In this document: piece after piece, positions 876 through 5,175 of the stretch
Numbering within the stretch: the stretch's first letter is position 1
Layout of the letters: every line of letters starts with the position of its first letter
DNA from: a bacterium
GTDB lineage: Bacteria; Patescibacteriota; Doudnabacteria; UBA920
Direction: 5' to 3'
Assembly (NCBI GenBank): GCA_021789715.1
Contig: JAJYJE010000057.1
Span: 1 to 6,561 of the forward strand
Length of the DNA: 6,561 nucleotides
The notes under the pieces: generated by a model
Seen by the model: the letters and a program-made list of their open reading frames with translations, nothing else
Database searches by the model: none
What the model was told of the DNA's origin: nothing
Translations under genes and position numbers: made by a program

Positions 876-2009
876 TTACTTTAAGCCATTCAAGCCGGCA
901 AGCACCTGGTCCGCCGTCTTTTGCCAGGTATACTTTTTTACCCATTCCAGGCCTTTGGCGATCAGCCGTTCCCGCAAGGATTCATTGGTTAACAACAGCT
1001 CAATGCCGCGCCGGATATCGTCCGGATTATGCGGATCGGCCAGCAGCGCAGCGCCGCCCGCCACTTCCGGCAGCGAAGTGGCCTGGCTGGCCAAAACCGG
1101 TACCCCGCAGGCCATTGCTTCAAGGGGCTGGAAACCGAAACCTTCGTAAAATGAGGGATAAACCAACCCCCGCGCCAGCGAAATCACTGCCGGCTTGTCC
1201 CGTTCTTCAAGGTAGCCGATGTATTTGATATGAGCTGATTTTTTTGACGCCGCGATTTCCCTAAAGATTGCTCGAAATTTCCAGCCCTTTCGGCCGACAA
1301 TAACCAGGTCGGTAGGGTGCCGCAATAGTTCATAAGCGCGCAGCAGCCCTGATAAATTTTTACGCGGCTCAATAGTATTTAAAAATAAAATATAGTCTCC
1401 CGGCAACCCGTAAGCGTTACGCGCGGCGCGCAGGCGCTCTACGGGTATTTTAGGCTGGAAAATCTTTTGGTCGATACCCGGATAAATTACCCTGATTTTT
1501 TGTTCCGGAATTTTAAACAGCCTGATGAGATCAAGCTTGGTATATTCCGAGACCGCGAATATTAAATCCGCCCTGGCGAATGCCCGCTTGAATCCAAGCA
1601 GTTTATGCCACAAATTCCGTTTTACGTCGTAATATTCCGGCGTGATAACCGGAGAGAGATCGTGGACGGTTATAGCCAATTTGGCAGAAGACCGGATATT
1701 GAACTGGTTTAAATTCGGCATAAACAGCACTTCAAAATCCCCCGTAAGGGATTCCAGCCTTACGGCCCGCAGCATCAGTCCCAAATTTAAAAGCCGGTTC
1801 GGGTAGCGGGCGCGGACAGTTTTGGCGTTAATAAAATGAAAATTATCGGCAAGCGCCGGACGGCTTTGGCCCAAAAAGCGGTTGCTAAACAAAGTGTAGC
1901 GATTCTCTTTATCCATAGCCAAAAGCGCGTCCAGCAGGTTTAAGGTGTAATTCTCCACCCCGCTGAGCCGTCCGCTTTGCAAACTTCTGAGATCAACTGC
2001 GATGTTCAT
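876..2009 (-). CDS. GT4 family glycosyltransferase (MtfB-like)
   Basis: A complete GT-B fold glycosyltransferase of 377 residues, the normal size for family GT4. It starts MNIAVDLRS, with the glycine loop SGVENY near residue 18 standing where relatives have GIGRY. The sequence TVHDLSP, then AVSEYTK, then VIYPGID mark the N-terminal acceptor domain and the linker. The C-terminal nucleotide-sugar domain opens with ILFLNTIEPRKN and carries the EX7E motif EGFGFQPLE at about 289-297, followed by ACGVPVLAS. The ATG at 2009 is preferred over an in-frame TTG two codons upstream, because the family begins MxIAxD. This start overlaps the end of the upstream gene by 17 bp, so translation is probably coupled. 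No Shine-Dalgarno sequence is seen. The expected role is adding one sugar to an undecaprenyl-linked oligosaccharide in the cytoplasm. It is a likely paralogue of the next gene downstream; sugar specificity is unknown. Confidence 0.93.
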   Translation of the reverse strand: MNIAVDLRSLQSGRLSGVENYTLNLLDALLAMDKENRYTLFSNRFLGQSRPALADNFHFINAKTVRARYPNRLLNLGLMLRAVRLESLTGDFEVLFMPNLNQFNIRSSAKLAITVHDLSPVITPEYYDVKRNLWHKLLGFKRAFARADLIFAVSEYTKLDLIRLFKIPEQKIRVIYPGIDQKIFQPKIPVERLRAARNAYGLPGDYILFLNTIEPRKNLSGLLRAYELLRHPTDLVIVGRKGWKFRAIFREIAASKKSAHIKYIGYLEERDKPAVISLARGLVYPSFYEGFGFQPLEAMACGVPVLASQATSLPEVAGGAALLADPHNPDDIRRGIELLLTNESLRERLIAKGLEWVKKYTWQKTADQVLAGLNGLK

Positions 2010-3186
2010 ACGCAAATGCCAAAAACTGCTGCTTGAATTTTTCCCTGCTGAATTTCTTCGCGTGGGCGCGCAAAGCTTGGGGGGGATATCTCAGCACATC
2101 CCAGGACAGAATAATTTTTTTTATAATTTCCTTATCGGGCTTACTGAACAACTCTCCTGTTATACCCGGCACGACAGTTTCCAAAGAGCCGCCCCTGTTA
2201 TAAGCGATAGTAGCCGTGCCGCAGGCGGCCGCTTCCAGTGGCATCAGGCCAAAATCCTCAACCTGCGGATAGATAAACGCCAAAGCCCCAGAATATTGAG
2301 CGCGCAGAACGGCATCGGAAATCCTTCCAAAAAAGCTAATGTTCGGCCCGGCTATCGACCGCAAAAACTTTTCCCGCCTGCCAGTGCCGAATACGTGGAG
2401 CGGCAAACCGAGCTCGTTAAAAACCCGAATAATCAATTCGTTGTTCTTGTGGGCCTGGAGGCGCCCGCCCAAGAGAAAGTAGTCACCTTTGGGATATAAG
2501 TCCATCCCAGCCTCCCCTGCGGCGGAGGAAAGGAGTTCGGCGTTGCTTTTATTTGCAGAAAACTCGCTTCGGCTCGGTCGACCCGGAGCGGAGGTAGCGA
2601 GATGCAGGGGGTTAATCGGCTTCCAAAATTCGCTATCTATAAACGGGTGCAAAACTTTCGAGTCGCGGTGATATATGCTCTTAATCCGTTTCTGAACTTC
2701 TTCGGAGTTTGCGATAAACGCCGTAACTCGCCGGGCGCCGCTAACATCCCACTTTCTCATCCAACGGATAACTAGGCGGGCCAATGGACGCAAAACGGCC
2801 GGTGCTTCATGGTCAACGTAATTATTGTCCACCCATAAAAACCGTGTTGGCGTATGGCAATAACAAATGTGCTTGACGCTTTTTGGCACATGAATATTTT
2901 TAGCCCAGCCGGAACTGGAGCTAATAACCAAATCGTATCCCTCGAATTTCAAAGAAGATACGGCTAGCGGAATAAGGGGCAGTAAATATTGCAACCGCGG
3001 TATTAGGTTGTAAAAAAACTGAAGCCAACTTGTACGCATGTCCCAACCCCGATATTTTTCCTTAAGCCTTCGGTCAAGGACCAATGCATATACCGGCGCT
3101 TCCGGAAATAGCTCGTGCAGCGCCTCCATCACTCGTTCGGCGCCGCCAAGCTGGGTAAAACTATCGTGAACCAGAGCTGTTTTCAT
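1993..3186 (-). CDS. WbaZ-like GT4 glycosyltransferase with an in-frame insert
   Basis: This 397-residue protein begins MKTALVHDSF and has the GGAERV loop near residues 14-19, a start typical of WbaZ-like GT4 enzymes (WbaZ is an O-antigen mannosyltransferase). Further family marks are HICYCHTPTRFLW (acceptor domain), FLLGGRLQAHKN (start of the donor domain) and the EX7E motif EDFGLMPLE at about 310-318, followed by AACGTATIAYNRGG. An in-frame TTG start 33 codons upstream would overlap the previous gene and adds residues unlike the family, so the ATG at 3186 is chosen. The gap from the upstream gene is 28 bp and the 3' end overlaps the next gene, so it sits inside one transcription unit. Between FWKP and KGDYFLL, where relatives have a short linker, this protein carries roughly 33 extra residues rich in Ser, Ala, Arg and Glu (about 193-225), encoded by a palindromic DNA segment. 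Being between the two domains, the insert may be tolerated. Mannose transfer is a family guess only. Confidence 0.93.
   Translation of the reverse strand: MKTALVHDSFTQLGGAERVMEALHELFPEAPVYALVLDRRLKEKYRGWDMRTSWLQFFYNLIPRLQYLLPLIPLAVSSLKFEGYDLVISSSSGWAKNIHVPKSVKHICYCHTPTRFLWVDNNYVDHEAPAVLRPLARLVIRWMRKWDVSGARRVTAFIANSEEVQKRIKSIYHRDSKVLHPFIDSEFWKPINPLHLATSAPGRPSRSEFSANKSNAELLSSAAGEAGMDLYPKGDYFLLGGRLQAHKNNELIIRVFNELGLPLHVFGTGRREKFLRSIAGPNISFFGRISDAVLRAQYSGALAFIYPQVEDFGLMPLEAAACGTATIAYNRGGSLETVVPGITGELFSKPDKEIIKKIILSWDVLRYPPQALRAHAKKFSREKFKQQFLAFAYEHRS
2514..2610. repeat. Palindromic insertion-like element inside a glycosyltransferase gene
   Basis: The 97-bp segment begins with CCCCTGC (2514-2520) and ends with its exact complement GCAGGGG (2604-2610). 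Inside lie further palindromes: CCTCC/GGAGG at 2511-2515 and 2524-2528 across the left end, and a larger one running from CTCGCT (2563-2568) to AGCGAG (2596-2601). The larger one encloses GCTC (2572-2575) paired with GAGC (2586-2589) around the self-complementary GGTCGACC (2576-2583). The segment is richer in GC than its flanks and codes for the non-conserved insert of the host enzyme. No clear target-site duplication is visible. Similar protein-coding palindromic elements are known in Rickettsia (RPE); the parallel is in architecture only and not in sequence. No second copy is present in this window, so its mobile nature is inferred. Confidence 0.6.
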
Positions 3187-4836: not shown

Positions 4837-4845
4837 TAATCGCTC

Positions 4846-5175
4846 TAAGCAAACTCGTAAGCCGAATTCTGTTTCTAAATAATCATCTGTCTAGTCTTGA
4901 TGTTGCCATCAAGCTCAAGCAACCTACCAAATTTGGTCTTGCACTCAGGTAAGAATTTAGCCGTTTCATCCGCGGTATTACTATCGCGGCTCGCCCCGCC
5001 TTTCGGCGGGGCGGTTGTTAGCTTTCGCCCACAACCGTCTCTGTTCGCATCTCGTGGATTACTCCAGGCGGGAGTTACCCGCTACCCGTTTGATAACTCT
5101 ATAGAGGTTATCAATAAGTGTTCGGACTTTCCTCTCCGGCTTAAGCCGGAGCGATTATTCGATTTGCTTAAAGCT
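4846..5175 (-). ncRNA. rnpB: RNase P RNA, bacterial type A-like
   Basis: This is the catalytic RNA that trims the 5' leader of precursor tRNAs. The universal core is present: GAGGAAAGTCC (5134-5124) near the 5' end, ACAGAG in the middle, GCAAGACCAAA before the CCA-binding loop, and CAGAATTCGGCTTAC (4871-4857) at the 3' end. Helices can be paired by eye: P1 TAAGCAAA/TTTGCTTA (5170-5163 with 4853-4846), P2 AATAATC/GATTATT (5159-5153 with 4884-4878), P3 over 5134-5151, a P12-like GC hairpin with a GAAA loop at 4993-5012, and P18 with a GCAA loop at 4896-4913. CCGAA in the 5' core and UUCGG in the 3' core replace the CCGGG/CCCGG pair of E. coli, a compensatory change. The GGU that pairs with tRNA CCA is kept (4928-4926). 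P13/P14 and P16/P17 appear absent, making it about 330 nt against 377 in E. coli. Exact ends are estimates. Confidence 0.96.

Follow-up and report, generated by a model that had tools for sequence, protein, structure and literature searches.

A glycosyltransferase gene in the 6561-base window (the whole stretch of DNA analysed here) is lengthened by a 126-nt insert at 2491–2616 on the minus strand, which is probably a decayed copy of a small and presumably mobile palindromic element, designated family D, that landed in frame in the interdomain linker of this GT4 enzyme, where its translation product is predicted to be flexible.

The insert and its host gene

The window is contig 45 of a genome of 833 kb (78% complete, 116 contigs), and the set used for comparison comprised 49 genomes of its class, including G001 from the same genus. 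The insert host (1993–3186, minus strand) was identified by Pfam and by its homologues as a GT4 (WbaZ-like) glycosyltransferase of 397 aa; Pfam PF00534 and PF13439 flank the insert with one domain match on each side, and the homologue P0003 has WbaZ-1 as its top PDB sequence match. Reading of the ORFs revealed two further GT4 genes in the window, one running off its edge and the second also supported by Pfam. The rest of the window encodes a bacterial sugar transferase, a SIMPL-domain protein, ribosomal protein S9 and a class A RNase P RNA (4842–5170, minus strand, 125.7 bits), the sole match in an RNA-family search of the window.

Alignment of 120 homologous proteins, together with the DNA of relatives, resolved the insert as 42 codons replacing three of the empty site, by which 39 residues are added and the frame is kept; the same position measures 9 nt in G001 (L041). 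The original prediction had described a 97-bp element adding about 33 residues, figures that give way to the boundaries defined by the homologues, and its placement of the element in frame in a WbaZ-like gene was borne out by the GT4 ORF. The GC content of the insert is 58% versus 49% for the remaining gene. Three of its six reading frames are stop-free.

The AlphaFold model, built with a 60-sequence alignment, has a mean pLDDT of 91, and the 10-residue mean falls to 51–67 over residues 191–230, between two well-predicted domains. Foldseek returned GT-B enzymes among the top matches of the predicted model. Low confidence between confident domains suggests that the insert forms a flexible linker between the two domains, as predicted by the model. 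The 60-sequence alignment, the dip in pLDDT and the fold matches agree with the expected position between the GT-B domains, and the same alignment confirmed that the motifs on both sides are intact.

The palindrome of the window copy, by itself, is no stronger than chance. The 7-bp inverted repeat first noticed in the insert is exact (CCCCTGC at 2514–2520 and GCAGGGG at 2604–2610, separated by 83 nt) and nevertheless weak as evidence for a palindrome: 13 inverted pairs of 7 nt or longer, not all of them perfect, lie within the 501 bp around the arms, and an exact 7-bp inverted repeat turned up somewhere in 34% of 2000 dinucleotide-shuffled versions of the insert and at a spacing of at least 80 nt in 3%. 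Folded as RNA and DNA, the segment, for which nested palindromes had also been claimed, was no more stable than shuffles (RNA, z −0.4 for the plus and −1.1 for the minus strand; DNA, z −1.0); a longer stretch gave z −0.5 and −0.9. Two possible hairpins can be read from the plus strand, CCTCC/GGAGG at 2511–2528, which was not significant on folding, and CTCGCT/AGCGAG at 2563–2601, which also appears in the predicted folds, these being no better than those of shuffles. The insert starts with GGGATATAAG and ends with GGGTTAAT (ATTAACCCC on the opposite strand), and a CGTC or GTAG tag is found at neither end.

Family D and its match to the insert

Nucleotide searches of the source genome and of relatives disclosed no second copy of the insert, which gave only a 19-nt chance match in its own genome and fragments of at most 38 nt in 60 relatives, one set of which aligned at one insert end. 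In database collections, where records close to the window's genome may be omitted from such searches, the insert matched nothing among plasmids and phages, a 19-mer from it had a single, unrelated match among viral contigs and an 18-mer had seven matches among genome contigs, none named Patescibacteria; the insert peptide matched only itself in the protein database. Several of the weak matches in relatives shared the same 17 nt near one insert end, and this was the route to family D, a dispersed element of ~85–140 bp that has TAAC...GTTA at its ends and an outer stem in addition to two C-rich hairpins, and which was detected in 21 of the 49 genomes by blastn and in 32 by a covariance model with matches counted on both strands.

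A profile of 17 family-D copies yielded a single match in the window, at 2494–2518 on the plus strand on the insert boundary (E 0.0049), and its score at the insert was equalled by none of 1000 insert shuffles; a 35-copy profile repeated the match (E 0.0039, 0/1000 shuffles). Comparison of this left end with three consensus end strings, which were selected after the resemblance had been spotted, likewise gave scores reached by 0 of 1000 shuffles and 0 of 1937 other window pieces. The right end, GCAGGGGGTTAAT at 2604–2616 (plus strand), looks by eye like the opposite end of family D, but this likeness was not significant: no profile match was obtained, and scores as high arose in 429 of 1000 shuffles and in 25 of 1952 window pieces. 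A profile of 68 ends had its best window match at the insert, yet with E 3, and the covariance model ranked the insert 15th in the source genome (E 5.2) and scored it in the window at E 0.041 versus 0.049 for an unrelated place. The match at the left end, set against the null result at the right end and the weak covariance scores, makes family D likely here, short of proof. Comparison with inserts of other families mostly gave results near chance, the best being the G004 insert, for which 26 of 500 shuffles were as high.

Family D is also present elsewhere in the source genome. A profile search of 20 of its contigs located two copies (36.5 and 24.9 bits), both in frame inside conserved genes, one encoding a YmdB-like phosphoesterase and the other the RarA/MgsA ATPase (rarA), and a covariance search of the whole genome ranked the same two first, with E 5.8e-15 for the copy in the training set and 1.8e-6 for the copy outside it. 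In local alignment with the insert, the score of the rarA copy was reached by 2 of 1000 shuffles, and that of the YmdB copy by 161 of 1000, which is chance. Both the YmdB and the RarA loop are empty in G001. The YmdB loop was read in nine relatives, out of 44 genomes other than the source genome with a match, and is filled by other inserts in five and empty in four; the RarA loop, read in nine relatives out of 28, is filled in one and empty in eight, indicating that the pattern seen in the glycosyltransferase recurs in at least one other gene.

Palindromic families at the glycosyltransferase linker

To place the insert among its homologues, 7993 candidate proteins were scored and the best 120 of 5528 matches were listed, the window protein included. 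The linker measures 21–27 aa in 93 of these 120 and 38–87 aa in 27 (window included), and in all 27 it is lengthened at reference residues 189–191. The expectation that relatives would have an empty site was thus confirmed by G001 and by the 93 short linkers. Absence of any other copy and conservation of the insert as protein across distant homologues had been named beforehand as findings that would count against a mobile element; the former was observed for the insert itself in nucleotide and peptide searches, and the latter is contradicted by the short linker stretch of the 93.

The 27 long linkers mostly represent at least four unrelated palindromic families. By peptide motifs, from which the labels were assigned by eye, nine belong to family A (GTCATTGCGAG type), seven to B (GTCATTCTGAG type), two to C (GTCATTCCGG/GTCATCCCGG type) and three to D, four are compounds, one is of another type and one is the window insert; D-type peptides were recognised by eye, among the listed homologues, in P0007, P0028, P0108 and the compound P0050. 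The DNA of five inserts was read (G004, G014, G017, G020 and G021), four of them encoding listed proteins, and four of the five form strong hairpins (z −2.8 to −7.6). The G017 insert has a recognisable left half and gives no fold signal (z −0.7 and −0.5), and it is a model for the decay of a palindromic element. The glycosyltransferases of G017 and G018 contain the database proteins P0013 and P0067, which are named Candidatus Doudnabacteria, so that the class is probably Doudnabacteria within the Patescibacteria.

At the genome level, the gene is present in 45 of the 49 genomes (E up to 1e-60); its match is split by an insert in six of the 45, all in the window's own family, and runs unbroken through the linker in 38. 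In G016 (L075, G016:C52) the match changes frame shortly before the linker and its first piece contains one TAG, which may reflect either a disrupted gene or faulty assembly. A tree calculated without the insert columns implies 19 changes between presence and absence, in which gain and loss are indistinguishable, and pairs the window protein with the empty P0004 of the same genus (SH-aLRT 98). P0054 and P0086 are equal at 325 of 337 positions (96%) outside two variable loops and carry family B and family A, respectively, at the same linker place, so that separate insertions must have occurred. Neither a target-site duplication nor recent movement was seen; a duplication would show between near-identical filled and empty sites, and the nearest empty site among the listed homologues, that of P0004, shares only 223 of 337 positions with the window protein. 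Elsewhere in the alignment, a second loop in the C-terminal domain (P0003 residues 309–312) contains inserts of 12–21 residues in 13 of the 120 listed homologues, some of whose peptides resemble the insert of a YmdB relative (L276), and 13 proteins have at least 10 additional N-terminal residues.

With regard to how such inserts arise, the elements would be copied to many places by an enzyme acting in trans, and insertions into coding sequence would mostly be purged by selection, the survivors being those in a flexible loop with an open frame; the hairpin would then decay, as its DNA form would no longer be maintained. The peptide encoded by the window insert is most likely functionless in itself. 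As for the mover, Y1 (RAYT-type) transposases are present in 26 of the 49 genomes, namely in 17 of the 32 that have family D and 9 of the 17 that lack it, which amounts to no association (Fisher p 1.0).

A less probable origin, which we consider unlikely, is another lineage-specific palindromic family, or a composite of fragments, that merely resembles the C-rich end of family D. Compatible with such an origin are the restriction of the match to one end, an insert middle that matches nothing well and the compound inserts seen by eye in four of the 27 long linkers, but the profile match falls exactly on a boundary set independently by the protein alignment, at a score not reached in shuffles, family D resides in the source genome, and D-type peptides occur by eye at the linker of the four proteins named above. 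Growth of the linker through slippage, duplication or the capture of unrelated DNA, with no mobile element involved, would agree with the lack of a second copy of the insert and of a fold signal; it is nonetheless very unlikely, since relatives have the same site filled by palindromic elements and the insert combines a deviating GC content with a family-D end.

It is also conceivable, if extremely improbable, that the long linker is a selected functional module for which elements were recruited or kept. Use of the same residue in 27 of 120 listed proteins, and lengthening of the second loop near residue 310 in 13 of 120, would fit a module; the peptides at the site are nevertheless unrelated and by eye include three reading frames of family A, near-identical proteins hold different inserts, the region is predicted at low confidence, and a tolerant loop is the simpler explanation. 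The decayed family-D copy remains the preferred reading of the window insert. A wider proposal can be offered tentatively, namely that at least four unrelated families re-enter the same few loops (the GT4 linker, the YmdB loop and the RarA linker) in Doudnabacteria-like Patescibacteria, where the elements may actively target these sites and not just be tolerated there, the window insert being an aged example; on this tentative proposal, such repeated entry would mean that selfish hairpins keep rewriting protein linkers.

Dispersed elements and known systems

Elements of other families are dispersed among the same genomes. Matches to the G004 insert were found in 29 of the 49 genomes and to the G014 insert in 33, part of which is explained by a 26–27-bp mini-palindrome nested in both queries. 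Forty loci, picked nonrandomly from the better matches, hold 44 element places, 15 of them within ORFs of 150 aa or more; these 15 places correspond to 13 ORFs, every one recognised by Pfam (DnaG primase, ATP synthase PF00231 in two cases, DinB-type polymerase, IPP transferase of the MiaA type, tRNA methyl transferase of the MnmA type, TGT, the carbamoyl-phosphate synthase small chain, RecJ type, tetrapyrrole methylase in two cases, Wzy_C and alcohol dehydrogenase). The family-B peptide of the glycosyltransferase P0053 also matches a DNA polymerase IV (E 3.3e-6) and, weakly, a UvrC-like protein (E 0.043).

Protein-coding palindromes are best known from Rickettsia, and comparable ones have reportedly been found in Wolbachia. 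The Rickettsia palindromic elements (RPEs) are small palindromes of ~100–150 bp located in and between genes and forming in-frame fusions (PMC2229807, PMC10969869). The elements described here resemble them in architecture, being small palindromes with inverted ends that lie in frame in conserved genes, and the 126-nt window insert falls within the RPE size range, with fold z of −0.5 to −1.1; they differ in the bacterial group, in the several unrelated families sharing one protein loop and in the decay of the window copy, which leaves no significant hairpin. Of the RPE-type architecture that the original prediction proposed, the in-frame insertion and the empty relatives were upheld; as for dispersed copies, the source genome has two clear ones of family D, to which the insert likely belongs, and as for the hairpin, that of the window copy is not significant and four of the five inserts read as DNA in relatives fold strongly. 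The related suggestion of a small mobile palindrome that tolerates coding positions is supported by the palindromic inserts that recur in frame at this linker in relatives, by the multi-copy family D, whose terminus matches one end of the window insert, and by the two family-D copies within other genes of the source genome; the insert itself has no further copy in nucleotide or peptide searches and a palindrome at the chance level.

CGTC-tagged REPs offer a second comparison: they lie inside genes, many of which serve replication or repair, have no dedicated transposase, re-use a site in Xanthomonas recB and are reported from five phyla, a list from which Patescibacteria are absent (PMC3733652). 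Families A and B are similar to these in that several inserts start with CGTCAT, whereas family D has TAAC...GTTA ends and no CGTC tag. Correia/NEMIS MITEs are described as ~100 bp long with inverted ends, a terminal TA and known in-frame fusions (PMC2229807); family D is like them in its size of ~100 bp and its inverted ends with TA. Neither a target-site duplication nor a parent transposon, both features of MITEs, came to light here. A literature search for palindromic or miniature inverted-repeat elements in Patescibacteria, Candidate Phyla Radiation, Parcubacteria or Doudnabacteria returned no title on the topic among the matches listed, from a coverage that mostly excludes subscription journals. 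As far as these searches reach, what is new is the bacterial group and the fact that unrelated families use a common loop.

Should such elements prove common among the Patescibacteria, which are a large group and have small genomes, selfish hairpins would supply new protein sequence more generally. One linker with several unrelated families also provides a natural series of empty, fresh and decayed sites for following the conversion of DNA element to protein, and for annotation, odd low-complexity linkers in genomes of this kind may represent element remnants.

Other repeats were observed in the source genome. The mini-palindrome contained in the glycosyltransferase inserts of G004 and G014 occurs as a 27-bp element in frame in the gene of elongation factor Ts (C13:5143-5169 in L088; tsf in L136:56-658), where it encodes SASAKATADK. 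A repeat of ~66 bp with a GGGGAAAACCCC...GGGGTTTTCCCC stem was considered as a candidate family and rejected, as it is distinct from the insert and found in 5′ leaders, directly upstream of rpsB and nusG (L136, L140) and elsewhere (C31:7275 in L140, C13:6390 in L136, C35:6143 in L142 and C5:5084 in L143, and in G007 at L137 and L141); it may represent a leader RNA for genes of translation and transcription. Finally, AT-rich TGATCA-like palindromic repeats were observed on C18 (L093) near 1556, 4221, 5653, 6149 and 7620.
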